Positions 10,166 through 51,206 of a stretch of DNA of 51,638 bases are shown piece by piece; position 1 is the first letter of the stretch; every line of letters starts with the position of its first letter. The stretch is from assembly GCA_021850095.1 (NCBI GenBank), contig JAJZRX010000017.1, positions 1-51,638 of the forward strand, written 5' to 3'. This DNA is from Deltaproteobacteria bacterium. Its GTDB lineage: Bacteria; Desulfobacterota; Desulfuromonadia; Geobacterales; Pseudopelobacteraceae. The position numbers and the translations under genes are program-made. Under the pieces are notes generated by a model. That model did not search any database, had not been told where the DNA came from, and saw only the letters and a list, made by a program, of their open reading frames with translations.

Positions 10166-10246
10166 CTCACCGAAAAGGCACAGCACGGGCAACCGTGTGT
10201 CGCAAAGCTACCATCCCGTCGCAGGGTAGATGGGTTATCGAAGTGA
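10166..10246 (+). promoter_or_regulatory. GEMM-I-like (cyclic dinucleotide) riboswitch, copy 1
   Basis: Reads GGCACAG, a hairpin CACGG-GCAA-CCGTG (10184-10197) with a GNRA tetraloop, then GTCGCAAAGCTACC (core CGCAAAGC at 10201-10208), and a 3' part GGGTAGATGGGTTATCGAA. This order (GGCAnAG, GNAA-capped hairpin, CGCAAA[G/A]C, GGTAG..GGGTT.nCGA) is that of cyclic-di-GMP-I/GEMM RNAs. The P2 arm is short. Some Geobacter members of this class sense 3',3'-cGAMP; I cannot tell the ligand here. Confidence 0.7.
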
Positions 10247-30258: not shown

Positions 30259-30287
30259 AAAGCCCGGCTCCGGCCGGGCTTTTTTTA
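30259..30287 (+). terminator. Terminator of gdhA, shared edge with draT
   Basis: AAAGCCCGGC/GCCGGGCTTT stem with a 4-base loop and a T-run. The T-run reaches the stop codon of the convergent draT gene. Confidence 0.92.
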
Positions 30288-34991: not shown

Positions 34992-35033
34992 GATCGCATC
35001 CTTTTTCAGCATGTGGTCTGTTCGACCGGCAAT

Positions 35034-35082
35034 AAAAAAACGGCGCTCCGGTTCATGCGGGATGAACCTGGATGGCGCCGTT
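35034..35082 (-). terminator. Terminator hairpin in the nifEN leader
   Basis: AACGGCGC/GCGCCGTT (35039-35046 and 35075-35082) outer stem, GGTTCAT/ATGAACC (35050-35056 and 35062-35068) inner stem, then seven T on the minus strand. It is between the sigma-54 promoter and the start codon, so it would stop transcription unless overcome. Confidence 0.85.
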
Positions 35083-35117
35083 GCCAAAATTAAAAAGATT
35101 GTTCTTTGGATGTTAGT

Positions 35118-35237: not shown

Positions 35238-37960
35238 TCAAGCCGATTTCAGGCTGCTGATAACCTCTTTCAGGGCCGACAGCGTGTAGGGTTTCTGGAT
35301 AAAGCCGGCCAAACCGGCGCCGGCAAACTTTTGCGTCACCTCCTGCTCATTGTAGCCGCTGGAGATGATCACCTGCAGATCCGGTTTTATACGCCGCAAC
35401 TCGAGAAAACATTGCCCGCCGTCCATCTGCGGCATGGTCAGATCCAGAATAACGAAATCCACACCGGGGTTGGAACGAAAAACCTCCAGCGCTTCTCGCC
35501 CATCGCTGGCGGTGATGGTTGCGAAACCCAGCTCCTGCAGCATCTGACAGGCGGTGCTGCGCACACTCTCTTCGTCGTCCACCAGCAGTACCGTTCCGTC
35601 CCCGCGCCAGCCTTCCTTTTCGCTGCGTTCGGGGCGGATTTCGGGCTGGCCGTTAGAAGCCGGCAGCAGAACCCGGAAAGTCGTGCCCCGCCCCGGCTGG
35701 CTGTCCACCTTGATGGCGCCCCGATGGCCGCGCACGATCCCCTGCACCGCCGCCATACCCAGGCCGCGGCCGGTGAATTTGGTGGTGAAAAAAGGATCGA
35801 ACAGCCGGGCCAGGGTGTCCTTGTCCATACCGCAGCCATCGTCGCTGATTTCCAGGTACACATACTGCCCCCCCTGCGGGGTGTCCGTCAGCCAATCGTT
35901 TTTCAGATAATCCTGATCGCAGGCCAGCTGGCCGGTTGTTACGGCGATCACTCCGTTTTCGTCTCCCAGCGCTTCCGAGGCGTTGATGACCAGGTTCATG
36001 ATGATCTGGTGCATCTGGGCGACATCGGCTTCCACGGCCGGCAGCGGACGGGTCAGATTCAGACGCAGCTCGGCCTTTTTGGAGATCGAGACCTGCAGAA
36101 TGTGCAGCATCTCCTCCAGCAGGCTGTTCAGATCCAGCTGCCCGACCATGAATTTGCCCTTGCCGGAGTAGGCCAGCATCTGCCTGGCCAGATCGGCGGC
36201 CCGGGAAGCGGCTTTGCCGATCCGCTGCAGATTATCCACCGCCGGGGATTCCGGCTTCACCCGCATCAGGGCCAGGTCGGCGTTGCCGATGATGGCGGTC
36301 AGGATGTTGTTGAAATCGTGGGCGATGCCCCCCGCCAGCACCCCCAGACTCTCAAGCTTCTGGGCGTGCAGCAGCTGCTGCTCCAGTTTCCGGCGCTCCT
36401 CTTCGCCCCGCTTGCGGTTGACGACCTTCCAGACCGCATCCATGAAAAGTGTCAGCTGCATCACGTCCGATTCCAGATAATCGCCGGATTTATTGGCCAC
36501 CCCGGCCACCGCCACAATGGCGTCATCGGCCATCACCGGCACGGTCAGGAAGCGTTTGAGCGGCACATGACCTTCCGGCAGACCTTTCTTGAGCGGATTG
36601 TGAGCCACAAAATCATTCAGCAGGATCGGCTTGCGCTGACGAACCACTTCGCCCCAGATCCCGGTGCTGTCCAGGTCGTAGACCGTTTTCTGCTCCTGGA
36701 CCGAACAATCCCGTTCGACCAGCTGTGCAGGATGAACTGCCGGGTGTGCTCGTTGTAGAAATAAATATAGCCGATGGCGCTGGCGGTCAGCCGGACGACC
36801 TCGTTCAGGGCATGATCCAGAAAACCGGCCTCATCACTGAACGGATATTGGGAAATATTGTACAGGCTGGCGGTGCGGTTCTCGCTTTCCCGCAAATCCA
36901 GCTCCTGACGATAAAGCGTATCGGCCATCGTCTTGAGAGAGCCGGACAGCTGGTTGAACTCGTCGATCGAGCTCAACGGCCAGGCACCCGAGCGGTCACC
37001 CCGGGCGATGGTGCGGGCATGTAGCGCCAGGGCATCAAAGCGCGCCGCCAACTTGCGGGCCAGATAGATCGAGGCTGCGACCGCGCAGAGCAGAGCGGTC
37101 AAAATACAGGCCAGAACAATCCAGGCGATGTTGAGCACCGTCCGGTACAGCGCACCATCTTTTTGCGCCACCAGCACATGCCAATCAACGGCGGGAATCT
37201 GGATCATGCTGCCGGTCATGCGGGCCCCGGAAAGATCGAAACGGCCGGTGGTGGGAAGATCGCTGTCGAGCCCCCGGCGCACGAGGGAAATATTGCCGAT
37301 GTTAAGCTGCTGGGCCGTACGGCGGCCGTCATGGTCGGCGATCACCTGTCCTTTGTCGTCCACGATCATGATCAACAGATCGTTACCGCCGCTGACCTGT
37401 TTGAGGAACCTGGACAGGCTCCCCAGATCCACCTCGCCGACCACGATCACCCCGTCGCCCGGCACGGCATAGGCGGCCGAGAGACCGCCGTTGATAACCG
37501 ACAGGAACGCTTCCGACCAGCCCGGCTTACCGCTCTGCGCCACCGTGCGGAACAGTGCATTGCGGGAAAGATCCAACCCCTCCAGTTCCTGATTCTGCTT
37601 CGGCGCTTCCCTGGCCAGGGCAATGCTGGAGATCCTGCCATCCGGATTGACGGCGTACAGACTGCCCAGCGAGCGGGAAGAGCTCACCAGACCGTCCAGC
37701 AGGTGCTGACGATTGTGCCCGGTCATGCCCAGATCGTGGTGGATGGCAGCCGCGGCCCCGACAATCGCCATGCTGGTATCCAGATAGCTTTCAACCTGGC
37801 TGGCGACAGCCCGCGCAATCTGCAGCTGGCGGGATTCGGCATCCTTTCTTATCTGCGGGGCAATCCAGAAATATCCGATCAGGGCCGCCACCCCGAAAGG
37901 GAGCAGCAGCGCCACGATCGGCTGCAGGGTCAATATGCGGCGGAGCGGAAAAGTCGCCAT
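35238..37960 (-). pseudogene. Cache-GAF hybrid histidine kinase, frameshifted in the GAF domain
   Basis: Two open frames (36617-37960 and 35238-36647) join into one kinase if one G is restored in the GGG run at 36710-36712: '...FILHSWSNG' then 'DCSVQEQKTVYDLDSTGIWG' and 'EVVRQRKPILLND'. Order: TM helix, periplasmic dCache-type domain (about 35-280), TM helix, HAMP, GAF (about 375-530), HisKA with 'GGIAHDFNN', HATPase and C-terminal receiver ('VLLVDDEESVRS', 'VDFVILDLTMP'). A homopolymer loss can be a real mutation or a sequencing error. Directly after the binding-lipoprotein gene (three-base gap). Confidence 0.85.
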
Positions 37961-37963
37961 GAT

Positions 37964-39079
37964 CTAGTTCACCGTAACGTACTGGCCATTAAGGATCACG
38001 GCCATAAAGGTATTCCGGTCTGCGTCACCGGATGTATCAAAAACAAGTGTCTGCTGGACGCCTTGAAAGCTTCCTTTGCCCAGAATGGCCTGCTTCAGCT
38101 TTTCACCTTCTTTGCGGATGGCAAAAGCCTCCAGTGCCACCAGCGCCGCATCATAGCCGGCCATCCCGGCAAAACCCGGATCCTGGCTGAAGCGGGCCCG
38201 GTAGGCCGTCAGAAAATTCCGGTAGCGCGGCGAAGTGTCATTGCGATCCATAAACTGGGCCACGACAACGCCTTCAGCCGCCGTGCCGGCCAGCTCGATG
38301 AAGCGTTCGGTGGAAGCCCACTCCGACATGCCGATTCGCATGCGGGGCGAAAGCTTGCGGATCTGCTGGCAGATCAGGGCCGAATCCACGGCGCCGCTGA
38401 TAATCAGCACCGTGTCAGCCTGTGAGGCGAGCAGTTCCCGCGCCACGGGCTGGAAAACCGTATCCCGCCCGGATTGGAAGGTTTTGGTCAGAACGATCTT
38501 TCCCCCCTGGGCCTCAAATGCGCTGCGGAAATCATTCAGCCACCCCTCGCTGTAGGAACGGTTGCTGTTGTCGAAAATGGCTGCCACGCTGCGGCTGCCG
38601 AGTTTCTGGTACAGGTAGCGGGCGCTCTTCGAGGCATAATTGCTTGTGTCCGAAATGACGCGCAGGAAGTTGTCATCCTGACCGTTCAATTCGACCGTGG
38701 TCACGGTCGGGCTCAACAGAATGGTCTGCGAGGCGTTGATCTGCGGCATGACCGCCATAGCCATACTGCTGGTCATCGGTCCGACTATCAGCTCGATCCG
38801 CTGGCCGATCAGCTCGCCCGCCACCCGCTTGGCGGTCTCCGGATTCTGCTCATCGTCCCGGACAGCCAGCGCCACCTGCCGGCCAGCGATGCCGCCAGCC
38901 GCATTGCACTGTTCCACCGCCAGCTGGACTCCGTTCCGGCCGGCCACCCCCAGGTCGGCCACCCGGCCGGAAAGACCGCCCAGAAAACCGAGCCGGATCG
39001 GCTCATTTTTCTGGCAGCCGCTCGGAGGAAGCAGCAACAGTCCGCACACCACCAGCTGAATTATTGATCTGCATCGCAT
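37964..39079 (-). CDS. Branched-chain amino-acid-type periplasmic binding lipoprotein
   Basis: 371 residues from the ATG at 39077-39079, seven bases after GGAG; an ATG at 39083-39085 sits too close to the ribosome site. Lipobox 'LPPSGC' near residue 22. The fold is Peripla_BP_6 (LivJ-like): 'RLGFLGGLSGRVADLGVAGR', 'NGVQLAVEQCNAAGGIAGRQ', 'ELIVGPMTSSMAMAV'. There are no ABC transporter genes nearby; the next gene is a Cache kinase, so it probably presents ligand to a sensor. Ligand unknown. Confidence 0.88.
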   Translation of the reverse strand: MRCRSIIQLVVCGLLLLPPSGCQKNEPIRLGFLGGLSGRVADLGVAGRNGVQLAVEQCNAAGGIAGRQVALAVRDDEQNPETAKRVAGELIGQRIELIVGPMTSSMAMAVMPQINASQTILLSPTVTTVELNGQDDNFLRVISDTSNYASKSARYLYQKLGSRSVAAIFDNSNRSYSEGWLNDFRSAFEAQGGKIVLTKTFQSGRDTVFQPVARELLASQADTVLIISGAVDSALICQQIRKLSPRMRIGMSEWASTERFIELAGTAAEGVVVAQFMDRNDTSPRYRNFLTAYRARFSQDPGFAGMAGYDAALVALEAFAIRKEGEKLKQAILGKGSFQGVQQTLVFDTSGDADRNTFMAVILNGQYVTVN

Positions 39080-39081
39080 TG

Positions 39082-41442
39082 TCATGCTCCTTGCCCTCGA
39101 TTGAAGTTTTCCAGGGTGCTGCGCAGGGCGGCCAACAGCTCCAGGGGCTTGAGCGGTTTCGGCATGAACAGGACCTTGAGCTGGTCGAGCGCCTGCCGGT
39201 CAACCTCCTCTTCAGTGTAGCCGCTGGTCATGATGACCGGCAATTCCGGACGCTGGCGGCGCAGCGCCTCCACCAGTTCAGAGCCGTTCATACGCGGCAT
39301 GATCACGTCCACAATCGCGGCCTGAATCCGGTCGCCCTGGCGGTTGAACAGCTCCAGCGCCTCGACCCCATCGCCGGCCGTCAGAACCGTATAACCGTAG
39401 CGCTGCAGCACTTCCCCCAGCAGTTTCATGATGGCGGCGTCATCCTCGGCCACCAGCACCGTTTCGCTGCCATGGTAGTTGACGGGAGCGGCGTTTTCGG
39501 CCGCCCGCTGCAGCGCCTGGCCGCTGTACAGCGGCAGGTAGATGCGAAACTCGGCCCCGCGGCCGGGAGTGCTGACAACGGAGATATAGCCGTTGTGGCG
39601 GGAAACGATCTTATGGACGATGGAAAGTCCCAGACCGGTGCCCTTGCCCTTTTGCTTGGTTGTAAAAAAGGGCTCGAAAATATTTTTTACGGTTTCGCTG
39701 TCCATGCCGCTGCCGTTGTCGCGGACACAAAATCCGGCGTAACGGCCGGGCGGAATCTCCGCCGTGCCTTCCTTCAGCGGCTGGCCCAGTTCGGCCGTCA
39801 TGCTCGCAACCGTGATCAGACCGCCGGTTTCCAGCGCGTCGCGGGCGTTGACCACCAGATTGATCAGGGCCTGTTCGATCTGCACCCGATCCACATACAC
39901 CGGCAGGTGCTCCGGGCAAGCCTGGATGACGAGCGTGATATCCTCACGGATCAGGCGCCCCAGACTCTTGCGGATCGATTCAAGGATCTGGTTCAGATCA
40001 TCGTACTGCAGCTGCATGTCATGCTTGCCGCTAAAAGCCAGCAAACCATGGGTTATCTCGCTGGCCCGCTTGGTCGAGGCGGAAATTTCCCGCACCAGGG
40101 GCAGGTTTTCCTGATCATTTTCCAGAGTCAGCTTCAGCAGGTCGGCGTAACCGCCAATCACGGTCAGCACGTTATTGAAATCATGGGCCACGCCTCCGGC
40201 CAGAATCCCGAGCGATTCCATTTTCTGGGACTGCAGCAGCTGGGCCTCCAGTGAAATCCGTTCGGTGATGTCTTCCAGGGTTTCGATGGCGGCGATAATG
40301 GTACCATCCTGATCACGAATCGGCGCAGAAGCGAACGACAGGCGGCAGCTGCGGTTATTCAGCACGAAATCCCCTTCGGCGTGCATACCGTCCCGGATCA
40401 GCCGTGAAGGGTAAAAATGTTCATAAAGAGCGGCCGCCTGCCCGATGTTTCCGTCGATCACATAATCGGCCAGACAGGGCTGGGGCGTCGCATAGAAGGC
40501 CCGCCAGTGCTGATCGGTAGCGATGATATCCGGCGCCCGCACTCCGCTCAAAACCTCCAGGGCCCGGTTCCAGATCAGAACCTTGTGATCGCCGTCAATT
40601 ACAAAGGTGGGGACGGTGGAGTTGAGGATCAGATTCTCGGCGAAATTCATCTTGTCGCGCAGCGCCCGGGAAGCGGCGCTGACTTTGCGGTAGCTGAACC
40701 ACAAACCTGCCAGGCCGGCCAGCCAGATTGCGGCAATCATCAGAACATGAAGAAGACTGCTTCTGTACATGGTATGGATGCTGGATTCCATCGGGATCGA
40801 GACGCTGATGCCGCCGCGAACGTCCCCTTCCCGGTAGCCCTGTGTAGCATGGCATTTCAGGCAGGGCTGCTCGGTGTCCAGACTGCGCATGTAACGGAAA
40901 TAGGGCTTGCCGTTGATATCCTGAAACTCGCTGAACTCCCGTTCCCCCTTTTCGAACTTCTCCAGGACCATTCTTTCCCAGGCATCCGGGGCGTTTTCCG
41001 GGCGGATCGGGTTCAGGCTGGTGATGTGCCCCTGGGGAGCGCCGGGCTGCAGGCGGCTTATCTCATAGACCTGACGGGTCATGTAGGCCGGGTTCATGCG
41101 CGTCAGCGGCACCCCGGAGGGGGTGGTGATATCCCGTTCGGGAATAGTGAGATAGGGGTTGGGGGGGGTCTCGTCCGTGACCGGAACATACACGCCGCCA
41201 TGCTTGGCGGCCCAGCGCCGGAAGGCGATATCCTTCTCGAAGCTGGCCCGGGCGGTATTGAGGGCATTGGCGGCCACAAAAGCGCGCTGGTCGCTTACTT
41301 CCAGGATCATAAAAACGGCGCAGACCACGCTCCAGATCAGCGCGGCCGCGCCGAACAGACTGCTAAACGGCGGGCGCTTGACCACCGGCTGTGCCGATTT
41401 TTCCGCTGCCGCTTCTTTTTCAATCTGTCTGTCGTCGGCCAT
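39082..41442 (-). CDS. Hybrid histidine kinase with a c-type heme sensor domain
   Basis: 786 residues. TM helix about 28-50, a periplasmic DUF3365-type (Tll0287-like) domain about 50-225 with heme motif 'CLKCH' (C194, C197, H198), TM helix about 232-252, PAS about 265-385, HisKA ('GGVAHDFNN', His near 413), HATPase ('NGSGMD', '[15 protein letters not shown]') and C-terminal receiver ('[12 protein letters not shown]', '[13 protein letters not shown]'). The heme could sense redox, NO, CO or O2. It ends three bases before the binding-lipoprotein start. No output domain. Confidence 0.93.
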
Positions 41443-41487
41443 AAAGATTATCCTGTAAAAACATAAAACCAGGAAAAAGCGCCAAAA

Positions 41488-43827
41488 TCATTGATTATTC
41501 ACGCCCAGCACCCGACCCAGCTCGTCCGCAAGGTTCTTGAGCGTGTAGGGTTTCATGATTGCGCCGCAAAAACCGTAGCCCTCCAGATCCACCGTAACGG
41601 CATCATTTGAATAGCCGCTGGAAACCAGCAAACGGGCATCCGGGTCGATTTCCCTGATCCGACGGGCCGCCTCCAGCCCCCCCATGCCGCCCGGCACGGT
41701 CAGATCAAGAATCACCAGGTCATAGGGGGTTCCCCGCTCCAGGGCCTGGCGATACAGCTCCAGCGCCGCCCCGCCTTCGCCGCACAGCTCCGGCAGACAG
41801 CCCAGCTCGGTCAGCATCATGCCGGCCACATCACGGATGAGCTCCTCGTCATCCATGACCAGCACCCGGCAATCGGGCGGTATAGCGGCGGCCCTGACTT
41901 CGCCCTGCTCCGCCTTCGAGGCTGCGGATTCCCCGGCGGCCGGCAGGCAGAGCACAAATTCGGCACCATTCCCCAGCTGCGACGAGACCGTCACCGTGCC
42001 GCCGTGGCGGGTGACAATCGAGTAAACCGAGGCCAGCCCCAGGCCGCTGCCGCTCTGTTTGGTGGTAAAATAGGGGTCGAATATTTTGTTCAGCTGATCC
42101 GGGGCAATGCCGCTGCCGGTGTCCCGGACAGTCACCCTGACATGGCGGCCGAGCGCTTGCGCCAGGTTGTCAGCAGTGCGGTTTTCGGCCCGGATCGTGA
42201 CCGTCCCGCCATCCGGCATGGCCTGCATGGCGTTGATCAGCAGATTGTTGAGGGTCTGATTGATCTGCCCCTCGTCGGCGTCGATATTCCACAATCCTTC
42301 GGGCAGTTCCAGCAGCTCTTTTACATGGGAACCGCGCAGGGCGAATGAAGCCGCCTCGCGGATCAGGCGGGCCGGATCGACGCTTTTTTTGACCGGCTCT
42401 CCGCCCCGGGCAAAGGTCAGCAGCTGCTGGGTCAGCTCGCTGGCCCGTTTGGCCGCTTTTTCACACTCATCCAGCCGGCCGGCCGCCCGGTGGCCGTCGT
42501 CGATCATCATGCGCGCCAGGGAAAGGTTGCCGACGATGCCGGTCAGGATGTTGTTGAAATCGTGGGCGATGCCCCCCGCCAGAAGCCCCAGCGATTCCAG
42601 GCGCTGGTTCTTTTCCTGCTCCTGCTGCAGCAGCAGTTTGTCGGTGATGTCGGTGTCGATCCCCTGCAGGCCGGCAAAAGCACCTTTTTCATCGAAGATC
42701 GGCCCGCCGCTGGACTCGATGAAACGCCACGAACCGTCCCGCGCCCGCCAGCGCAGCAGCAGACCGTTCCACTCCCTGCCGCCGGCGGCTTCTGCGGCTG
42801 TTTTCCGGAGAATCTCATGGTCATCGGGGTGAACCAGCTCCAGAATATCCAGCTGCTGAAATTCCTCGATCGAATAGCCCAGCATCTTTTCCACATAGCC
42901 GTTGGAATAGGTGGGCTTCAGCTGGCTGTCGGTCCGCCAGATCCAGGCCGGGGTACTCTCCACCAGCCGGCGGTAGCGCTGCTCGCTTTCGCTTAACTGC
43001 TGTTCCGCCAGCACGCTTTCGGTGATGTCCCGCGCTATGCCCAGCACCGTCTCAAAGGTCCCGTCTTCTCCCCGTTCCGGCACGATGCGTGATTCATAGT
43101 GCCTGATTCCATCCACGGCGGGAAAGGAAAAGCGGATTTTAACGGCCTCGCCCTGCTCAAAGGCATGGGACACGGCCTGCTCCCACTGTTCCAGCAGCTC
43201 GGGCGGCATCCCCAGTTCCCGGTTGGTTTTGCCGAGATAATCATTCACCGATAATCCGGTGATAGCTTCGATCTGGCGGTTGACGTAGATATGGCGCAAG
43301 GAACGGTCAAAGCGCGCCACCACATCCGGCAGATTGTCCGCCAGGGAGGAAAACTGCTGTTCCCGCTGTTTTAGCTTTTCCTGGGCGCGCCTGATTTCGG
43401 ATATATCGGCAATCACCCCCACCAGCGAGCAGAGATTCGCCTGATCGTCCTCCAGGCGGCGACCGCTTAAATGCCCCCAGAAATCGCGGCCGTCCTTGCG
43501 GATATAGTGCCGTTCGTGATGCACATGGTCATCCTCCCCGGTGATCAGCCGGCGCATGCGGAAATCCCCTTCAGAGCGCTGGTCGGGGTGAACGTGCTCG
43601 CTATAGGCGGACCCGATCAGCTCCGCCAGCGGATAGCCGAACATGGCCGCCATGCGCTGGTTGGCAAAGGTGATCACCCCCCGCGAATTGACCAGCAGAA
43701 TGCCGGCCTGCATCGTGTCGAAGATGCTTTCCAGCTGCTGGCGGGCCTCGGCCAGATCCCGTTCGACCGAGCTGCCGACTGCGTCCGTTGCGCTATCCCC
43801 ACCAGTTGTGTTAATCGATTTTTCCAT
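41488..43827 (-). CDS. Hybrid histidine kinase with three PAS domains
   Basis: 779 residues, no membrane helix, so cytoplasmic. A coiled coil leads into PAS1 (about 25-150, 'YPLAELIGSAYSEHVHPDQR'), PAS2 (about 160-280, 'SVNDYLGKTNRELGMPPELL') and PAS3 (about 285-405, 'GYSIEEFQQLDILELVHPDD'), then HisKA ('GGIAHDFNN'), HATPase ('DTGSGIAPDQL', 'KQSGSGLGLASVYSIV') and a receiver ('VLVMDDEELIRD', 'DLVILDLTVPGGMG'). Its kinase core differs from the three very similar ones in this cluster. Confidence 0.93.
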   Translation of the reverse strand: MEKSINTTGGDSATDAVGSSVERDLAEARQQLESIFDTMQAGILLVNSRGVITFANQRMAAMFGYPLAELIGSAYSEHVHPDQRSEGDFRMRRLITGEDDHVHHERHYIRKDGRDFWGHLSGRRLEDDQANLCSLVGVIADISEIRRAQEKLKQREQQFSSLADNLPDVVARFDRSLRHIYVNRQIEAITGLSVNDYLGKTNRELGMPPELLEQWEQAVSHAFEQGEAVKIRFSFPAVDGIRHYESRIVPERGEDGTFETVLGIARDITESVLAEQQLSESEQRYRRLVESTPAWIWRTDSQLKPTYSNGYVEKMLGYSIEEFQQLDILELVHPDDHEILRKTAAEAAGGREWNGLLLRWRARDGSWRFIESSGGPIFDEKGAFAGLQGIDTDITDKLLLQQEQEKNQRLESLGLLAGGIAHDFNNILTGIVGNLSLARMMIDDGHRAAGRLDECEKAAKRASELTQQLLTFARGGEPVKKSVDPARLIREAASFALRGSHVKELLELPEGLWNIDADEGQINQTLNNLLINAMQAMPDGGTVTIRAENRTADNLAQALGRHVRVTVRDTGSGIAPDQLNKIFDPYFTTKQSGSGLGLASVYSIVTRHGGTVTVSSQLGNGAEFVLCLPAAGESAASKAEQGEVRAAAIPPDCRVLVMDDEELIRDVAGMMLTELGCLPELCGEGGAALELYRQALERGTPYDLVILDLTVPGGMGGLEAARRIREIDPDARLLVSSGYSNDAVTVDLEGYGFCGAIMKPYTLKNLADELGRVLGVNNQ

Positions 43828-43935
43828 ACATGTACTCCCCGTGAATGTTCCCGGTCAGGACCCTGATCACCGCTTTCAGTTCCGGCAGCGTGTACGGTTT
43901 CTGGATGAAACCGGCTGAAGCAGTGCCGCACACGG
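43811..43935 (-). pseudogene. Receiver-domain 3' fragment of a hybrid kinase
   Basis: In frame it reads 'ASAGFIQKPYTLPELKAVIR' then 'VLTGNIHGEYMYGKID' and a stop. The first part is nearly identical to the receiver end of the neighbouring kinases ('LAGFIQKPYTLSALKEVI'). No kinase core precedes it, so it is a leftover of recombination. The tail overlaps the start of the three-PAS kinase. Confidence 0.8.
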
Positions 43936-44003
43936 CCCGACGGGGTCGGCATGAATGCTTGTGGCAGAAAAAGCGCATCGCAACGTTTCCTTTCGCTGAA
44001 AGG

Positions 44004-44612
44004 TCAGAGGGATGAAGCAAGCACGGCCTGCCTGCCCAGTTCGCCGTACATTTCCTCGGCACAGACCGGACAGATGCCGTGGCTGAACTGTGCCTGGGAA
44101 CGGCTGCTGATGTACGCTTCCAACTGGTTCCAGTAGCCGGCGTCATCCCTGATCTTTTTGCAGCACATACAGATCGGCAACAGTCCATGCAGGCTGCTGA
44201 TCTCGGCTTCTTGAGCAGTTTTGAGCGCTTCCTGGGCTTCGATCTTTTCGGTAATGTCGATACAGCTGCCGATAAACCCGGCAAATTCGCCGTTATCTGA
44301 ATAAAAGGGTACGCCTCGATCCAACAGCCAGCGATAGATCCCGTCATGGCGCATCAGGCGGTATTCCATCTCGAAGATCCTGCGGGCATGGAAATTCTCC
44401 AGGTAGATCTTCAGGCAGCGCTCGAAGTCGTCCGGGTGAACCCCCTCGGCCCAGCCGTTGCCAAACTCTTCTTCCATCGTCCTGCCCCGGAAAGCCAGCC
44501 AGCGTTCGTTGAAATAATCGCACAGAGAATCCGGCCGGGCTCGCCAGATCAGGATCGGCGCCTGCTCAACCAGGGCCTGGTATTCATTTTTTGTCAGATG
44601 TTTGTGGGGCAT
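44004..44612 (-). CDS. PAS-domain protein with a C-terminal two-CxxC module
   Basis: 202 residues, soluble. PAS of the PAS_3 type about 8-128 ('LIWRARPDSLCDYFNERWLA', 'GWAEGVHPDDFERCLKIYLE', 'FIGSCIDITEKIEAQEALK'). After a short coiled coil comes a ~50-residue module with C148-x2-C151 ('ICMCCKKIRDD') and C181-x2-C184 ('HGICPVCAEEM'), joined by a conserved W-x3-E-x-Y stretch. The module is found after PAS domains in many environmental bacteria; two CxxC knuckles suggest a zinc site. It has no kinase or enzyme domain and may act as a partner of the flanking kinases. Confidence 0.85.
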   Translation of the reverse strand: MPHKHLTKNEYQALVEQAPILIWRARPDSLCDYFNERWLAFRGRTMEEEFGNGWAEGVHPDDFERCLKIYLENFHARRIFEMEYRLMRHDGIYRWLLDRGVPFYSDNGEFAGFIGSCIDITEKIEAQEALKTAQEAEISSLHGLLPICMCCKKIRDDAGYWNQLEAYISSRSQAQFSHGICPVCAEEMYGELGRQAVLASSL

Positions 44613-44642
44613 TTCTTCTCCTTGCAGTGGTGTGGCAATAAA

Positions 44643-46757
44643 CTACACTTTCCTGACAACCTTCTTCAGCTCCGACAGCTTGTACGGTTTCTGGATAAAG
44701 CCGGCCGGTGCCATGCCGGAAAACTTCTGGCTGATTTCCTGCTCGTTGTAACCGCTGGACATGATCACGCGCAGCCCCGGATCAAGCCGGCGCAGCTCAC
44801 GGAAGCACTGCTCGCCATCCATGTGCGGCATGGTCAGATCCAGAATCACGAAGCTGATGCCGGGAACGGTCTTGAAAACGTGCAGCGCCTGGTGGCCGTC
44901 ACTGGCGGTGACAACCGTGAAGCCCAGTTCCTTCAGCAGCTCGCTGCCGGTGCTGCGCACGGTTTCCTCGTCATCCACCAGCAGAACCGTGCCGCTGCCG
45001 CTCCAGCCGCTCGTATCCTTTTTTTCCTCGCAGAGTTCGACCGCTGTTCCGGAAGCCGGCAGCAGAACCGTGAAGGTCGTGCCCCGGCCCGGCTGGCTGT
45101 CAACCGTGATCGCCCCGCGATGGCCGCGTACGATCCCCAGCACCGCCGCCATCCCCAGGCCGCGGCCGGTGAATTTGGTGCTGAAGAAGGGATCGAAGAT
45201 CTTTGACAGGGTCTCGGGATCCATGCCGCAGCCGCTGTCGGAAACCTCCAACCAGACGTACCGGCCGGCGGTCAGGTTTTCAGCCAGCCAGATGGTCTTC
45301 AGGCCGTTTTCATCGCACTCCCGGCTGCCGGTTTTGATTGCGATAACGCCGCTTGCATCGTCCAGCGCTTCCGAGGCGTTGATGACCAGGTTCATGATGA
45401 TCTGGCGCAGCTGAGTGGCGTCGGCTTCCACGGCCGGCAGCGGGCGGGTCAGATCCAGGCGCAGCTCGGCTTTTTTGGAGATCGAGACCTGCAGCATCTG
45501 CAGCATCTCCTCCAACAGGCTGTTCAGATCCAGATGTTCGACCACGAATCTGCCCTTGCCGGAGTAGGCCAGCATCTGTTTGGCCAGGTCGGCGGCCCGG
45601 CACGCGGCCTGTTCGATGCGCTGCAGGTTGTCCGCCGCCGGGGAGCCCGGAGCCAGCCGCATCAGGGCCAGGTCGGCATTGCCGATGATGGCCGTCAATA
45701 TGTTGTTGAAGTCATGGGCGATGCCCCCCGCCAGCACCCCCAGACTCTCCAGCTTCTGGGCGTGCAGCAGCTGCTGTTCCAGCTTGAGGCGCTCATCTTC
45801 GGCCTGTTTGCGTTCCGAAATATTGCGCGCCACCCCCAGCACCGCCGGCTGATCGGCATAATCGACGGCCTGGACGTTGAGCTCAACCGGGAAAATGCTG
45901 CCGTCTTTGCGGCGATGGGAGCTCTCGAAGGTGATCGAGGACCCCTGCTTGAGAATCTCCAGATTACGGGCAAACTGGTCATGCACACTTTCCGAGGCAT
46001 CCACGTCCGCCAGCGTCAACTGCAGCAGCTCTTCGCGGGAATAGCCAAGCTCCCGGCAGGCCTGGCGGTTGGCGGCGATGATCTTACCGGCTTGATTGCT
46101 GATATAAACCGGATCGGTGATATTCTGAAACAGTTCGCGGAAGCGCTGCTCGCTTTTGCGCAATTCATCTTCGATCTGGTTCCGTTTCTTTCTGTTGGCC
46201 AGCAGCATCCCCAACAACGCGGTGCCTATCGGATAGATCAGCAGAACCGGCAGGGCCAGGCTGGTGATGAATTTTTTGATCAGCTCCTGGGGCAGCAGCA
46301 GCATGCAGAGTACCATGGTCACATGGACGGCCACTCCGAAGAGGTACAGTTCCGTCAGGGAAAATTCCTGTCTGCGCTGCGCGCGGACCTGTCTCCAGGC
46401 CAGACCGATCAAGCCGGAGGAAGCGATGGTGGCAATGCCCATAACGACGCCACCGCCACCCAGATTAAAGCGGTAGGCGGCAGCCAGCGCCATGGCTATG
46501 CAGGCCGGCAGAGCGCCGAAGAACAGCCCGGCCAGACCGAGCAGGATGGTGCGGGTGTCAAAGATGACTCCCGGCTCCCAGCGGACCGGGGTGGCCATCA
46601 GCACGATCGCGATTCCTCCGATCAGCAGGCCCGAGACGATCTGGTAGAAGCTGGAGCCGCGGGCCTTTTTACTGCCGCTGACGGTGTCGTAAAGCAGCCC
46701 GAGCGCCATCAGCAAGGCGGCGTTATTAACCAGACCGAAGATGATGTTTTCGTTCAT
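44643..46757 (-). CDS. Hybrid histidine kinase with a 5TM-LYT membrane sensor
   Basis: 704 residues. Residues 1 to about 190 hold membrane helices of the 5TMR-LYT type ('RTILLGLAGLFFGALPACIA', 'NLGGGGVVMGIATIASSGLI'). PAS about 205-325 ('YISNQAGKIIAANRQACREL'), HisKA with 'GGIAHDFNN', HATPase ('DSGCGMDPETL', 'GRGLGMAAVLGIV') and receiver ('VLLVDDEETVRS', 'SFVILDLTMPHMDG'). The core from HisKA on is very similar to the kinases at 46824 and 35238. 5TM-LYT domains sense small molecules or membrane state. Confidence 0.93.
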   Translation of the reverse strand: MNENIIFGLVNNAALLMALGLLYDTVSGSKKARGSSFYQIVSGLLIGGIAIVLMATPVRWEPGVIFDTRTILLGLAGLFFGALPACIAMALAAAYRFNLGGGGVVMGIATIASSGLIGLAWRQVRAQRRQEFSLTELYLFGVAVHVTMVLCMLLLPQELIKKFITSLALPVLLIYPIGTALLGMLLANRKKRNQIEDELRKSEQRFRELFQNITDPVYISNQAGKIIAANRQACRELGYSREELLQLTLADVDASESVHDQFARNLEILKQGSSITFESSHRRKDGSIFPVELNVQAVDYADQPAVLGVARNISERKQAEDERLKLEQQLLHAQKLESLGVLAGGIAHDFNNILTAIIGNADLALMRLAPGSPAADNLQRIEQAACRAADLAKQMLAYSGKGRFVVEHLDLNSLLEEMLQMLQVSISKKAELRLDLTRPLPAVEADATQLRQIIMNLVINASEALDDASGVIAIKTGSRECDENGLKTIWLAENLTAGRYVWLEVSDSGCGMDPETLSKIFDPFFSTKFTGRGLGMAAVLGIVRGHRGAITVDSQPGRGTTFTVLLPASGTAVELCEEKKDTSGWSGSGTVLLVDDEETVRSTGSELLKELGFTVVTASDGHQALHVFKTVPGISFVILDLTMPHMDGEQCFRELRRLDPGLRVIMSSGYNEQEISQKFSGMAPAGFIQKPYKLSELKKVVRKV

Positions 46758-46823
46758 GATGCGCCTCCACGGCGATCGTTTCTCCGGCGGGCAGACAGCA
46801 GACCCGCAGCAGGCAGAGCGGCG

Positions 46824-48905
46824 CTAACCGATATGCACAAGCGCCTCTTTCAAGGCCGACAGTTTGTACGGTTTCTGAATGAAGCCGGCCAGCCCCTTGC
46901 CGGCAAACTTCTGGGTGACCTCGTATTCGTTGTAGCCGCTGGAGATGATCACTTTGACCCCGCAATCCAAACGACGCAGTTCGCGGAAACACTCCTCGCC
47001 ATCCATATGCGGCATGGTCAGATCCAGAATGACGCAGGCGATGTCATCCCGGTTTTTAACAACCTCCAGCGCCTGACGTCCGTCGTTGGCGGTGATCACG
47101 CCAAAACCCAGCGCCTTCAGCATTTCACTGCCGATACTGCGCACCGCCTCTTCATCATCCACCAGCAGCACCGTGCCGGTGCCCCGCCAGGCGCCGCTTG
47201 CCGGCTCACCGTGTGAAGGTTCGACCGCTTTGCCGCAAGCCGGTAGCAAAATCTTGAAGGACGTGCCCCGGCCCGGTTCGCTGTAGACCCTGATCGCGCC
47301 GTGATGGCCGCGCACAATCCCCAGAACGGCCGCCATACCCAGGCCCCGCCCGGTAAACTTGGTGGTGAAGAAGGGATCGAAGATTTTAGACATGGTTTCC
47401 TGATTCATGCCGCAGCCGTTATCGGAAATTTCCAGGTAGACATACAGGCCGTCCGCCAGACCTTCCGACAACCACACGTTTTTCAGATAGGCGCTGTCGC
47501 ATTCCATGCTGCCGGACGTGACGGCGATCACGCCGCTCCGGTCTCCAATCGCTTCCGAGGCGTTGATGACCAGGTTCATGATGATCTGGCGCATCTGGGT
47601 GGCGTCGGCTTCCACGGCCGGCAGCGGACGGGTCAGGTTCAGGCGCAGGACGGCTTTTTTGGAGATCGATACCTGCAGCATGTGCAGCATCTCTTCCAGA
47701 AGCCGGTTCAGATCCAGACTTTCAATGATGAATTTGCCCTTGCCGGAGTAGGCCAGCATCTGCTTGGCCAGATCGGCGGCCTGGGAAGCGGCTTTTTCGA
47801 TGCGCCGCAGATTGTCCAGCGCCGGAGATTCACGGTTGAGCCGCATCAGGGCCAGATCGGCGTTGCCGATGATGGCTGTCAAGATGTTGTTGAAATCATG
47901 GGCGATGCCCCCCGCCAGACCCCCCAGACTCTCCAGCTTCTGGGTGTGCAGCAGTTGCTGTTCCAGCTTTTGGCGTTCCTCTTCGGCGCGCTTCATCTGG
48001 CTGATGTCGCGATGGATCGCCAACACCATCTGCTGACCGGCCAGCTCGAACATCTTCAGCGAAATCAGCATCGAACGCCGGTCACCATCCTTCGTACGAT
48101 GGACAGATTCAAAGCTGCTGGCTCCGTCCCGGCGCAGTGTATCCAATACTTCACTGATGGCATCCCGGTTCTGGACAGCTTCCAGATCGGCCACCGTCAA
48201 GGCGGCAAATTCGTCGCGGGAATAATTCAGCAACTGATGGGCGGCCTGATTGAATTGCAGCGGTTTGAGTTCCGGTACACTCCAGAGAATAATCCCGTCC
48301 GGTGACTGTTCAAACAGGGTACGGTAGAGTGTTTCCGACTTCTGCAGGCGGCGATGAGCGTCGGCCAGCTGCGAATGGCTGGAGATTTCATTGTCCAGCA
48401 TCAGTCCGGCATAGACGAAAAAGGGCTGCAGATCGTCATAAATGCTCTGGTCGGTCAGCTGCATTCCCTCCATGCAGACCGCTCCGATTGTGCGGCCATG
48501 GGACAGCAAGGGAAAGATCCAGTTTTCGACCGCCAGCGTGCCGCCGGCGCCGGGGTAGGGAACCCGCATGGCGGGATCGCTGATCCGCAGCGCTTCGCCG
48601 CTGGCGAGCACTCTGGCAAGGTCCGGATTATCAGCTTCCTCAAAACATTCTGCGGTTCCGAAAACATCCCGCCGCCGCCAGCCGCCGTCCAGGGAAAAAA
48701 CTATCGATACATTGGCGGCTCCGATGGTCTGCATCAGAATAGCGAGGATATGTTCCACCATATTGACAAGACCGGCAACGGAACTTAAACTCGTCAGCAG
48801 CCGGTTGACCAGCTCCAGTCGCGATTTGCTCCTGGCCAGCTCCACCAGACGGCTGTGCAGCTCTTCCACCGTTGCGGCGCTGTTTATCCCGGCGCTACTG
48901 TTCAT
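46824..48905 (-). CDS. GAF-PAS hybrid histidine kinase coupled to the corrinoid genes
   Basis: 693 residues, soluble. N-terminal helix about 10-45, GAF-like about 48-185 ('LVNMVEHILAILMQTIGAAN', 'WIFPLLSHGRTIGAVCMEG'), PAS about 195-315 ('LFEQSPDGIILWSVPELKPL'), HisKA ('GGIAHDFNN', His near 345), HATPase ('DNGCGMNQETM', 'GRGLGMAAVLGIV') and receiver ('VLLVDDEEAVRS', 'ACVILDLTMPHMDG'). Its ATG overlaps the DUF1638 stop by four bases (48902-48905), so it belongs to the corrinoid operon. Confidence 0.93.
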   Translation of the reverse strand: MNSSAGINSAATVEELHSRLVELARSKSRLELVNRLLTSLSSVAGLVNMVEHILAILMQTIGAANVSIVFSLDGGWRRRDVFGTAECFEEADNPDLARVLASGEALRISDPAMRVPYPGAGGTLAVENWIFPLLSHGRTIGAVCMEGMQLTDQSIYDDLQPFFVYAGLMLDNEISSHSQLADAHRRLQKSETLYRTLFEQSPDGIILWSVPELKPLQFNQAAHQLLNYSRDEFAALTVADLEAVQNRDAISEVLDTLRRDGASSFESVHRTKDGDRRSMLISLKMFELAGQQMVLAIHRDISQMKRAEEERQKLEQQLLHTQKLESLGGLAGGIAHDFNNILTAIIGNADLALMRLNRESPALDNLRRIEKAASQAADLAKQMLAYSGKGKFIIESLDLNRLLEEMLHMLQVSISKKAVLRLNLTRPLPAVEADATQMRQIIMNLVINASEAIGDRSGVIAVTSGSMECDSAYLKNVWLSEGLADGLYVYLEISDNGCGMNQETMSKIFDPFFTTKFTGRGLGMAAVLGIVRGHHGAIRVYSEPGRGTSFKILLPACGKAVEPSHGEPASGAWRGTGTVLLVDDEEAVRSIGSEMLKALGFGVITANDGRQALEVVKNRDDIACVILDLTMPHMDGEECFRELRRLDCGVKVIISSGYNEYEVTQKFAGKGLAGFIQKPYKLSALKEALVHIG

Positions 48906-49489
48906 AGGTCAGGTTTCCTTGAGTTTTTGATGCTTGCGCTGAGACATGCCTCCAGATTTTCAAGACCGGCATCCAGCCAGCGCAGCTCCAGTCCGGTCAT
49001 CTCACTGACGGCGGCCGCTTCGGCGCTGAAATCCCCGGAACAGGGGCTGCGAATCGCCAGCAGGTATTTGTGGGCGCCCCGGAAGATGCTGCGCATGATC
49101 TCCGGGTTGCCCGGCATGACCTCGCCGATAATTTCCCTCCAGTGCAGCGCCCAATCCTCGAACAGGAAAAAGGCGCCCTGCTCCAGTTCACGGCTGAAGA
49201 TTTCCTGCCCGAGGTAGATCTCGACGCAGTTCTGCCCGGGCGTGCGGACAACATCAGCCTGTTTCAGGATGTGATCCATGCGGGGGTGGCAGGCGCCGTA
49301 GAAAACAAACGCCGTCTGGCCGCCATGCGCGGCCAGACTCTTTTCGAGACCGCTCTGCAGCTTTTCAAAATCAACATGCAGCCCGGAGGGAAGAAATGCC
49401 GTGGCCAGCCCCCAGCCGTTTTTGCTGATCAGGAAGCGGATCTCCTTCTGCAGGATTCCGCACCCGACGATGGTTCCCCTCTGGCTCAT
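48902..49489 (-). CDS. DUF1638-family protein
   Basis: 195 residues. Matches DUF1638 (PF07796) by 'GCGILQKEIRFLI', 'VFYGACHPRMDHIL' and 'GQNCVEIYLGQEIFSRELEQ', 'GAFFLFEDWALHWREI'. The family is found near corrinoid methyltransferase genes in methanogens and anaerobic bacteria, often with trimethylamine-type systems; activity not known. Conserved Cys and His in 'GACHPRMDH' could bind a metal. It overlaps both neighbours by four bases. Confidence 0.87.
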   Translation of the reverse strand: MSQRGTIVGCGILQKEIRFLISKNGWGLATAFLPSGLHVDFEKLQSGLEKSLAAHGGQTAFVFYGACHPRMDHILKQADVVRTPGQNCVEIYLGQEIFSRELEQGAFFLFEDWALHWREIIGEVMPGNPEIMRSIFRGAHKYLLAIRSPCSGDFSAEAAAVSEMTGLELRWLDAGLENLEACLSASIKNSRKPDL

Positions 49490-50529
49490 GAGTGCCCTTC
49501 CCCGTAGGAGCCATGCCGGATGGCGGCTTCCACCAGGGCCCGGATATTGACCTCGGGGATCTTGAAGGGCATCAGCAGGGTGCCGAAGAGGAAACCGCCG
49601 GCCCTTTTGCCGGCCCGCATGATTTTTTGCACCTCGCGATCGATTTCCTCCGGCGACCAGTCGATCAGGCGGATATCGTTGACGGCCCCGGCGATCAGCG
49701 CCTGCGGCCCCAGCAGCGAACGGGCTTCTGTGATGTCGTCGTAGGGATTCAGGTAATAAGCGCCGATGCCGGTCGCGGATTGAAGGTCGGCCAGGATCGG
49801 ATTGATCCGTCCGCCGCCGTTGAAAAAGACCACTCCGGCCGGACCGCCCTGCTCCAGGTCACGAATCGTCCAGGGCAGCGCCAGTTCGCGGAATTTGTTG
49901 AGCTGGATAAAGGTGGCCGAAGCCAGCGGATTGACATACACGATCAGATCGGCCCCCGCTTCGCGCAGGGCCTGGATCTGGCGCCGGCAGAAGGTCGAGC
50001 AGGTCTGCAGCAGATGATTCCGCAGGGCCGGATCGCCGTTCAAAAACAGATCCATCCAGGGCCCGATGCCCATCAGCATGGCCGGCAGCGTAAAAGACGC
50101 CGTCACGGCCGCCAGAACAGGATAGCGCCCCTGGGCCTCGGTTTTCAGGATCCGCACACAGCTGGTCAGTTCCCGGAAGCGGGGATGCTCGTTCAGATCG
50201 TCCGGAACAAACAGCTGCTGGATGTCCTGGGCGGTACGGATCACCAGATGCCCGACGTTGGGAGGGCCGTCATCGGCGTAGATTATGTTTCTGCAGCCCA
50301 TGACTTCGGCCTCCAGGGCTGAATAAAACATGGCGAGCAGCGTGTCGTAGCCGTATTTCCGGCGCAAACGCAGCTGGCCTTCGGCCACCAGATCGCCACG
50401 GGCGTAGTAGTCGCGAATCGTCAGCCCCAGCTCCTGCGCGCCCTGATCCAGCAGATTGCAGATGATCGGCACCCTGTCGGGGATTTGTCCCGACATCAGC
50501 GCGCCAAAACGTTCCATGCCGCTGGTCAT
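49486..50529 (-). CDS. MtaA/UROD-family methyltransferase-like protein without the usual zinc ligands
   Basis: 347 residues of the uroporphyrinogen decarboxylase-like TIM-barrel family that includes corrinoid methyltransferases MtaA and CmuA. Family blocks: 'ERFGALMSGQIPDRVPI', 'YGYDTLLAMFYSALEAEVMG', 'IVYVNPLASATFIQLNKF'. In MtaA, zinc is held by an H-x-C pair and a distant Cys. Here the matching places read 'FFNGGG' (235-240) and 'LLMPFKIPEV', and there is no Cys after residue 181. Zinc-thiolate chemistry therefore seems lost. It overlaps the corrinoid gene and DUF1638 by four bases each. Confidence 0.85.
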   Translation of the reverse strand: MTSGMERFGALMSGQIPDRVPIICNLLDQGAQELGLTIRDYYARGDLVAEGQLRLRRKYGYDTLLAMFYSALEAEVMGCRNIIYADDGPPNVGHLVIRTAQDIQQLFVPDDLNEHPRFRELTSCVRILKTEAQGRYPVLAAVTASFTLPAMLMGIGPWMDLFLNGDPALRNHLLQTCSTFCRRQIQALREAGADLIVYVNPLASATFIQLNKFRELALPWTIRDLEQGGPAGVVFFNGGGRINPILADLQSATGIGAYYLNPYDDITEARSLLGPQALIAGAVNDIRLIDWSPEEIDREVQKIMRAGKRAGGFLFGTLLMPFKIPEVNIRALVEAAIRHGSYGEGHS

Positions 50530-51206
50530 GACCGCACCTCGCGCACCAGCCGGGCGACGATCCCGGGCGCCTGCGCGGCGGTATCGCCCCAGGCGTCGGC
50601 GCCGACGTCGCGGTACAGATCAGGATGGAAACGGTAGGGGGCTCCGCCGACAATTATCCGCAGGCGATCCTCCAGACCGCGCTCCTGAAGGATGTGCCGG
50701 ATCCGCTTCGGACCGCGCTCGCCGGTGGCGGTGTGAACCATCATCGAGGAAACGGCGATCACCTCGGAGCCGGTCGCCAGAGCCTGATCGACAAACAGTT
50801 CCGGTGCGACATTGATTCCCAGGTCGTTGACTTCGAACATCCTGGCCTTCAGACAGCCGATCACTATTTTTTTGCCCAGGCCGTGAAAATCGCCGTGACT
50901 CGTGCCGATCACGACGCGTCCCTGCACTTCGGGAGCGGTGGCAAAAAGCGGTATCAGGCGGTCAGCCGCCTCTTCGGCGATCTGTGAAGCCAGAAAGTGC
51001 TGCGAAAGCGTCACCAGGCTGTCGGAGGAGATCATATCCCCGATCATCCTCTCCATACCCGGGATAATAACCTCGAAGATCACCTGTTCGGGAGTAACGC
51101 CGTCGTCAAGGGCTTTCTGCACGATCCGCAGGGCGGCGGCCTTGTCGGTGTCAAAAAGAGACTTCAGGTAGGATTCCAGTATCTCTTTGGGGATGCTTTC
51201 GGTCAT
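50526..51206 (-). CDS. Corrinoid (B12)-binding protein of methyltransferase type
   Basis: 226 residues, the usual length of MtaC/MtbC-type corrinoid proteins. Helical cap domain about 10-90 ('TPEQVIFEVIIPGMERMIGD'), then the Rossmann cobalamin domain with D106-x-H108-x2-G111 ('SHGDFHGLGKKIV'); the His would be the lower cobalt ligand. Later 'VIAVSSMMVHT' and 'RIIVGGAPYRF' complete the site. It would carry a methyl group between a substrate methyltransferase and an acceptor. First gene of the operon; ribosome site AGGAGAAGCCGCC. Confidence 0.93.
   Translation of the reverse strand: MTESIPKEILESYLKSLFDTDKAAALRIVQKALDDGVTPEQVIFEVIIPGMERMIGDMISSDSLVTLSQHFLASQIAEEAADRLIPLFATAPEVQGRVVIGTSHGDFHGLGKKIVIGCLKARMFEVNDLGINVAPELFVDQALATGSEVIAVSSMMVHTATGERGPKRIRHILQERGLEDRLRIIVGGAPYRFHPDLYRDVGADAWGDTAAQAPGIVARLVREVRS

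Follow-up and report, generated by a model that had tools for sequence, protein, structure and literature searches.

The DNA stretch analysed here (the window, 51,638 nucleotides, contig JAJZRX010000017.1 of assembly GCA_021850095.1, from a deltaproteobacterium of the Pseudopelobacteraceae) contains a cassette of four genes, which encode a corrinoid protein (COR), a protein of the URO-D superfamily, a DUF1638 protein and a hybrid histidine kinase, the transducer, followed by an array of further kinases. The order COR-URO-D-DUF1638-kinase is not accidental. We propose that COR, the URO-D-like protein and the DUF1638 protein act together as a complex that supplies the sensory input of the kinase whose gene follows theirs, by a mechanism based on the methyl or cobalt state, a proposal in which we place modest confidence. 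That the corrinoid module serves as a sensory input is likely, and that the sensed event is the transfer of a methyl or alkyl group to cobalt has in our estimate a little under an even chance. We infer both the ligand and the methyl transfer.

Conservation of the cassette

The three junctions between the COR, URO-D, DUF1638 and transducer genes overlap by exactly four bases each, as the original prediction had stated, and the identities which it gave to the four products were borne out by Pfam. In the transducer PAS, HisKA, HATPase_c and Response_reg were matched and GAF was seen only below threshold (GAF_2 below its cut-off). With the H-box visible in the translation and HisKA, HATPase_c and receiver all matched, the protein is a hybrid histidine kinase.

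The predicted link hinged on the gene order being kept in relatives, and this proved to be the case. A DUF1638 search over 58 genomes, including the host genome, matched 23, and 20 regions were fetched around close matches in relatives from three genera and two families. All 20 contain COR, URO-D and DUF1638 in the same order beside kinases. The exceptions are of detail: one URO-D gene is broken in two (L046), and the DUF1638 of L044 was seen in the genome search and as L088, not in the gene calls of L044. Among 13 further regions around weaker DUF1638 matches, ten (L053-L062) hold a second, distant four-gene cassette (group C), always with a kinase directly downstream. The kinase is two genes further on in L052, and none was seen in the fetched regions of L063 and L064.

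Named bacterial and archaeal genomes were scanned with the URO-D alignment, and 80 loci were kept of 126 relatives. Fifteen of these appear to repeat contigs of the relatives' regions, and the two sets thus overlap. By record title the 80 loci belong to 14 NCBI phyla, with four loci lacking a phylum; 13 is the safer count, since most of the seven Myxococcota rows carry only 'Deltaproteobacteria' in the title. Several of the closest named matches are records of Geobacteraceae, Desulfuromonadaceae or Pelobacter, and cassette records other than metagenome bins include Citrifermentans bremense R1, Desulfospira joergensenii DSM 10085, Mariprofundus sp. KV and Terasakiella sp. PR1.

DUF1638 comes next after URO-D in 65 of the 80 loci. 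The corrinoid partner was found beside URO-D by script in 79; the locus without it (L101) has its URO-D 287 bases from the contig start, and in seven loci COR and URO-D are a single open reading frame (ORF). Of 78 proteins encoded next in line, 66 contain a kinase domain. The hidden Markov models (HMMs) for COR, URO-D, DUF1638, histidine kinase, receiver, GAF and the reductive activase RACo were built from cassette loci, which biases these counts towards them, and Pfam served as an independent check: it matched HATPase_c in 57 of the 69 downstream proteins scanned. The 69 are the 78 minus nine giants of more than 1200 aa, of which L079, L089 and L104 were scanned singly; the 78 exclude L123 and L128, which lack downstream sequence. 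Four of the 12 loci without a kinase hit a contig end, and in L140 the wrong ORF was picked, the true one having GAF and kinase. The rest have HD-GYP (L081, L089), GGDEF (L084) or GAF only (L075, L139), or are L116, described below, and L093, where only a scrap of GAF was seen before the next kinase. For contrast, a kinase directly follows DUF1638 in only 2 of 11 DUF1638 loci of other types from the same phylum, a count in which one locus ends at a contig end after DUF1638 and which omits L196 (no DUF1638 by HMM) and L189, L191 and L192 (module cassettes).

Two kinds of accessory gene were observed beside cassettes. A CheW protein is encoded directly upstream of COR in L083 (Pfam), the L088 protein starting with nearly the same sequence, and this suggests a tie to chemotaxis in some genomes. 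A receiver protein follows the transducer in L035 (7169-7735) and L037 (9187-9753); that of L037 is a receiver-ANTAR protein (RNA-binding antiterminator) and that of L035 is equal to it in length and score. A receiver-ANTAR protein is a possible output of the cassette.

Fusions and exchangeable outputs

A single ORF encodes both DUF1638 and a histidine kinase in 10 genomes (L074, L126, L197-L200 and L206-L209, L126 being on the same contig as L050). Nine of these pass the Pfam DUF1638 cut-off of 27 and L206 scores 26.4. A further protein, in L189, is a DUF1638-GAF-PAS-HD-GYP fusion. Because of the DUF1638-kinase fusions, the tie between the three proteins and the kinase is physical in some genomes. 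The outputs differ, being kinase, HD-GYP or GGDEF, while the module is constant.

The original prediction had left the direction open, either from the corrinoid trio to the kinases or from the kinases to methyl metabolism. The first direction is better supported, and the second less so, since outputs vary from locus to locus but the module and its coupler domain do not. Gene order and fusions uphold the predicted link for the first kinase; its extension to the whole array is only partly supported.

DUF1638 was also seen fused to a hydantoinase/oxoprolinase-type protein in another context (L183 and L186, same phylum), a possible sign that DUF1638 works with an activase-like partner.

A coupler GAF domain that follows the corrinoid module

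The first ~180 residues of most transducers are a GAF domain, which we call the coupler GAF (NGAF). Its HMM matches 64 of the 78 proteins directly downstream of cassettes. Of its 33 additional matches in L032-L144, 32 belong to other proteins of the cassettes or to adjoining second copies, and the remaining one scores 19 bits. In the 58 genomes, NGAF has 29 matches in 20 genomes, 24 of them inside cassettes, and a module-type URO-D is encoded in every one of the 20. It also occurs without NGAF in five more genomes, four of which have the DUF1638-kinase fusion form. The AlphaFold2 model of NGAF (predicted local distance difference test, pLDDT, 90.6) has a GAF fold, and its best Foldseek matches are GAF domains (PDE5A, 6.7e-07).

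Mirror trees were calculated from 39 loci, which remained when the 82 were restricted to the 48 complete ones and these were thinned so that their URO-D sequences differed by more than 15 %. The NGAF distance matrices correlated with those of COR, URO-D and DUF1638 at r = 0.82, 0.85 and 0.74, compared to 0.40, 0.33 and 0.41 for the kinase core of the same proteins; NGAF and its own kinase core gave r = 0.41. When the kinase was controlled for, the partial correlations of NGAF with COR, URO-D and DUF1638 were 0.78, 0.83 and 0.69; with NGAF controlled for, those of the kinase were 0.12, -0.03 and 0.18. A contrast of this kind, which is correlational, would be expected from an NGAF in contact with the corrinoid complex and an output that can be exchanged.

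Other lineages have other N-termini. The group C kinases share another GAF-like N-terminus (10/10), and nine beta/gamma-type transducers share a PAS domain, preceded in six by an ethylene-receptor-like membrane domain (L118, L119, L121, L127, L130 and L134 by alignment; Pfam ETR1_N in L118). As Pfam found ETR1_N in 6 of the 69 transducers scanned, and most are thus without it, a link to ethylene was set aside.

Motifs and chemistry of the module

Motifs were counted over 83 loci, in which 82 COR, 81 URO-D and 69 DUF1638 homologues were found. COR has the B12-binding and cap domains with DxHxxG of methyltransferase corrinoid proteins, and also a weak NCBIfam CarH match. The D, H and G of this cobalt-ligand motif, Ser153 and both glycines are kept in 82/82.

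The URO-D-like protein belongs to the URO-D fold family (Pfam, 169 bits). The MtaA-like label of the original prediction did not hold: the protein scored 83.0 bits against the NCBIfam MtaA/CmuA model (TIGR01463, cut-off 235.4) and lacks the zinc motif, although its closest solved relative by profile is MtaA (methylcobamide:coenzyme M methyltransferase, 4ay7, E 2.8e-30). Solved CdmB matches only its 140 C-terminal residues. HxC with a distal Cys, the letters of which are visible in the alignment to 4ay7, we take to be the zinc motif of MtaA. HxC was found in none of the 81 homologues, and a Cys anywhere at the distal position (311-323) in six. HxC and the distal Cys are both present in the positive control, the two URO-D proteins of a separate corrinoid cluster of the host; five of seven URO-D-like ORFs of other DUF1638 loci have HxC somewhere, at positions that are not all comparable. 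The lack of zinc ligands argues against an MtaA-like function, not against a methyltransferase I, because CdmB, a methyltransferase I of the URO-D family, does not require zinc (PMC13222342).

Over 27 sequences, 17 URO-D columns are invariant, mostly Gly and Pro, and the polar residues Asp18, Gln52, Asp62, Asn91 and Asp264 are kept in all 27. In a quick URO-D tree without bootstrap the group C rows are one side of a branch, the A/B rows need three changes, and the catabolic rows are very long-branched, for which reason no weight is given to the tree.

The DUF1638 protein (PF07796, 97.9 bits, cut-off 27; AlphaFold2 model pLDDT 87.9) has three cysteines kept in 69/69 homologues, a fourth in 62/69 and His38 in 68/69. 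In Phaeobacter, DUF1638 mutants need methionine, as do mutants of its split corrinoid methionine synthase (PMC5764234), and DUF1638 has been grouped there with B12 reactivation without a specific role being proposed (PMC5764234; also PMC12478193).

A RACo-type reductive activase (RACo/RamA) is encoded directly upstream in 29 of the 75 assessable loci (Pfam confirmed 5/5 tested), and elsewhere in the genome in the host. No candidate second methyltransferase was found in 14 of 18 chosen cassette genomes, MtrH being present in one of the 18. FolP-like and MetH-like proteins were told apart by frame length alone in this comparison. The host genome has no candidate methyltransferase II, with two Pterin_bind matches on other contigs and no match to MtrH, and Pfam found none among the array genes. 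Nor was a metabolic theme seen among the 25 families listed of 186 for 114 cassette neighbours, chosen from 148.

The other corrinoid cluster of the host (L203, C25) encodes a NifH-like protein, COR, two MtaA-like proteins with zinc motifs, RACo, an FeS protein and an SsuA-type sulfonate transporter, and no kinase or DUF1638 was seen in it. It possibly handles a methylated sulfonate.

Proposed mechanism and alternatives

The URO-D-like protein would bind a small methyl or alkyl donor and pass the group to Co(I) on COR, which is proposed because URO-D-family methyltransferase I enzymes do likewise. The ATP-driven RACo/RamA activase, judging from its family, would bring oxidised cobalt back to Co(I). 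DUF1638 would help in the reduction of cobalt or read its state, a role suggested by the genetic tie to a B12 methyltransferase in Phaeobacter and by the three invariant cysteines (Cys10, Cys67 and Cys88 in the host protein). The state of COR and the URO-D-like protein would then pass by direct contact to the dedicated N-terminal GAF of the transducer or, in other lineages, to the second GAF type or PAS. Co-variation and fusions support such contact coupling as a prediction. The output, histidine kinase and receiver, would relay to a phosphorelay common to sister kinases with other sensors, as the near-identical kinase cores suggest. The methyl group would not feed metabolism, because most of the cassette genomes examined have no candidate second methyltransferase; methylated or oxidised cobalt would itself be the signal.

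Put more generally, the module may represent a receptor class that works by covalent detection. A signal compound would give its methyl or alkyl group to Co(I) of COR in the complex with the URO-D-like and DUF1638 proteins, a GAF or PAS coupler would turn the cobalt state into kinase, cyclic di-GMP (c-di-GMP) or phosphatase output, RACo would be the reset, and bacteria of many phyla would use it. This claim, taken whole, is tentative, and we would give it rather less than an even chance.

Several observations weigh against the proposed sensory mechanism. DUF1638 is absent after URO-D in 15 of the 80 named loci and is thus not essential everywhere, and RACo is absent directly upstream in 46 of 75. 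In L116, RACo, COR, URO-D and DUF1638 are not followed by a transducer, and the downstream proteins of L139 and L075 carry the coupler GAF with no catalytic output domain seen. NGAF is absent from 14 of the 78 downstream proteins, three of these loci having it in another ORF. Five of its 29 matches in the 58 genomes are away from cassettes: one kinase in G002, which has its cassette elsewhere in the genome, and four proteins from genus g2, where every genome concerned has a divergent cassette on a different contig. In G030, the fifth genome with a module-type URO-D and no NGAF, a kinase immediately precedes URO-D, and neither COR nor GAF was seen; the locus is at a contig end. The NGAF alignment has no conserved Cys or His, and NGAF must therefore read the module by contact or through a small ligand. 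All ten pairwise correlations, including those of the kinase core, beat 999 of 999 permutations, and part of the signal is thus shared ancestry. Pterin_bind proteins beyond the FolP-like and MetH-like ones, possible second methyltransferases, occur in 4 of the 18 genomes, the MtrH genome among them. The donor, cobalamin binding and the kinase response are predicted from genomes alone.

The genus g2 proteins with NGAF outside cassettes are those of L178-L181. The one scanned with Pfam (L180) is a GAF-PAS-SpoIIE phosphatase, and a TrpRS/TyrRS-like gene adjoins the NGAF protein in L180 and L179.

It is also conceivable that the cassette is an ordinary catabolic demethylase or dehalogenase with its own regulator alongside, in which the kinase both detects the substrate unaided and induces the operon, as in the mec cassette of dichloromethane degraders. 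The known systems of URO-D-family methyltransferase I and corrinoid protein are catabolic (PMC13222342), and mec carries a kinase and a response regulator (PMC9768040). RACo upstream in part of the loci agrees with this explanation, and the separate corrinoid cluster of the host (RACo and two MtaA-like proteins) could be the target of the regulator. However, 14 of the 18 genomes lack a candidate second methyltransferase, and among the 114 neighbours no family has more than four members, transport-type families having two each among those listed. Neither DUF1638-transducer fusions, nor exchange of outputs, nor a GAF that co-varies with COR and URO-D more strongly than the kinase core does would be expected for a separate regulator, and we consider the catabolic explanation unlikely.

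A second explanation is that what the module senses is not a methyl donor but redox state, a gas or B12 status. The corrinoid would then be a redox or ligand cofactor, and the URO-D-like protein only a scaffold keeping it against the GAF. No substrate is known and the zinc ligands are absent; the DUF1638 cysteines are invariant, RACo is a redox activase by family, some transducers have ETR1_N, and the mostly Gly and Pro invariant columns of URO-D fit a scaffold. RdmS has been proposed as a methyltransferase-associated redox sensor (PMC6944256), with redox-dependent autokinase activity revised in PMC11784639. Against this, a cobalt that only bound a ligand would have no need of Co(I), the methyl-transfer nucleophile that RACo generates in the loci that have it, and the fully kept polar residues of URO-D suggest a ligand site. 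We judge a redox, gas or B12 sensor to be as improbable as the catabolic system. A chance neighbourhood in kinase-rich genomes, for which the 17 transducer-core matches in the host genome and the variation of much of the rest of the array between relatives could be cited, is already contradicted by an order kept across many phyla, the fusions, the dedicated GAF and the rarity of a kinase after DUF1638 in loci of other types, and is very improbable.

The wider kinase array and neighbouring genes

The features of the array are given in Table 1. All its genes are on one strand, as originally described, but there are eleven ORFs instead of ten, and the last two are one split kinase. The gene for this dCache-HAMP-GAF-kinase-receiver protein is apparently split by a frameshift within GAF, and the two ORFs were read as one kinase, since in a relative (L037, 1752-4370) the gene just upstream of COR encodes an unbroken homologue of 872 aa. 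The frameshift may be a sequencing error or real decay, both being possible. A gap of 66 bases separates the transducer from the 5TM-LYT kinase. The absence of a DNA-binding or GGDEF output from the run, noted earlier, was confirmed at E up to 0.001, with Pfam for ten ORFs and NCBIfam for the last one.

Table 1 Features of the cassette and the kinase array (positions in the window)
Feature	Position	Strand	Evidence
Corrinoid protein COR, 226 aa, MtaC/MtbC-like	50526..51206	-	Pfam B12-binding 3.7e-18, B12-binding_2 3.1e-07
URO-D superfamily protein, 347 aa, methyltransferase-like, without the MtaA zinc ligands	49486..50529	-	Pfam URO-D 1.9e-49
DUF1638 protein, 195 aa, invariant Cys10, Cys67 and Cys88	48902..49489	-	PF07796 7.2e-28
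Transducer, 693 aa: N-terminal coupler GAF, PAS, HisKA, HATPase_c, receiver	46824..48905	-	Pfam
Coupler GAF (NGAF) inside the transducer	48330..48881	-	Own HMM match 1.1e-57
Hybrid kinase: 5TM-LYT sensor, PAS, histidine kinase, receiver	44643..46757	-	Pfam
PAS protein with two CxxC motifs, 202 aa	44004..44612	-	Pfam
Hybrid kinase with three PAS domains, distant core	41488..43827	-	Pfam
Hybrid kinase with Tll0287-like sensor, distant core	39082..41442	-	Pfam
Periplasmic binding protein, Peripla_BP_6	37964..39085	-	5.4e-54
Split kinase, N-terminal part: dCache, HAMP, start of GAF	36617..37960	-	Pfam
Split kinase, C-terminal part: kinase and receiver	35238..36647	-	NCBIfam

The five kinases had been regarded as a unit, and this stands for part of them. 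The kinase-receiver core of the transducer is 75 % identical to that of the 5TM-LYT kinase and 72.5 % to that of the split dCache kinase, but only 35 % to that of the three-PAS kinase and 39 % to that of the Tll0287 kinase. Because of their 72-75 % identical cores, the 5TM-LYT and dCache kinases are probably sensor-swapped paralogues on the same pathway as the transducer, and several inputs may feed one phosphorelay. Cores of at least 68 % identity occur in five kinases of the host genome, which has 17 matches to the transducer core at E ≤1e-40, the transducer being included in both counts. Most other array genes have no full-length homologue of at least 40 % identity beside the cassette in the 20 relatives' regions. 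A 66 % identical Peripla_BP_6 homologue is beside the cassette in L037, and the pair of Peripla_BP_6 and dCache kinase recurs in L037 and in L205, where it is beside URO-D. The first kinase is the conserved partner of the trio, and the wider array is only partly linked.

Just past the array, 32244-35087 (-) encodes a NifEN-like fusion of 947 aa, which has two nitrogenase component 1 domains, and slightly beyond it there is a DRAT gene at 30285-31079 (-). The sole Rfam riboswitch match in the window is a c-di-GMP-I riboswitch at 10167-10242 (+, 42.8 bits), far from the cassette and directly upstream of an NHL-repeat protein gene (10310-12415); no cobalamin riboswitch was found within the window at the Rfam gathering score.

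Relation to known systems

The original prediction knew of no described system with this layout. This holds for an input made of COR, URO-D and DUF1638, of which no description as a signalling module was found in the open-access literature, the scope of the search; for the layout as such, the mec cassette is the closest precedent found. The mec cassette consists of the MecA kinase, the MecB corrinoid protein, MecC/MecE methyltransferase I, the MecD response regulator and MecF methyltransferase II (PMC9768040), and thus likewise clusters a kinase and regulator with a corrinoid protein and URO-D-superfamily proteins. It differs in being catabolic, with a methyltransferase II, and in that MecA is reported to have its own PocR ligand domain; DUF1638 is not mentioned for mec in the excerpts of that paper (PMC9768040). 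Pfam found no PocR domain in the transducer, nor is PocR among the 25 families listed of 43 for the 69 transducers.

The systems of CdmBC, MtvB, OdmB, VdmB and CmuA also combine a corrinoid protein with a URO-D-fold partner, but have a methyltransferase II (PMC13222342). In the Phaeobacter split methionine synthase the DUF1638 gene adjoins a corrinoid gene and there is a RamA-like activase, as in the cassettes, but that system is biosynthetic, with pterin-binding and homocysteine parts, and the excerpts of its paper make no mention of a kinase (PMC5764234). MsmS and RdmS of Methanosarcina acetivorans are PAS/GAF kinases tied to methyl sulfide metabolism or methyltransferase genes; unlike the transducer, which has HisKA, they are without an H-box, and they are described as heme- or thiol-based sensors, a corrinoid complex as input not being met in the excerpted descriptions (PMC11784639, PMC6944256).

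Cobalamin is the sensor cofactor of the B12 photoreceptors CarH and AerR, as is proposed for the cassette. To our knowledge these have no URO-D partner, activase or kinase. As input chemistry the cassette would be new, though made from known parts, its function being read from genomes only.

If the proposed mechanism is true, parts of a B12-dependent methyltransferase are the input of two-component and c-di-GMP signalling, in organisms that span relatives of Geobacter, iron oxidisers, methanotrophs and Bacteroidota. Reaction-based sensing would be added to signal transduction, and methyltransferase-like corrinoid/URO-D genes that stand without a metabolic pathway would gain a role. The cassette would also offer a second setting for working out DUF1638, which is needed for methionine synthesis in Phaeobacter. 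The findings suggest that B12 chemistry is apparently used here for sensing a chemical rather than for consuming it.

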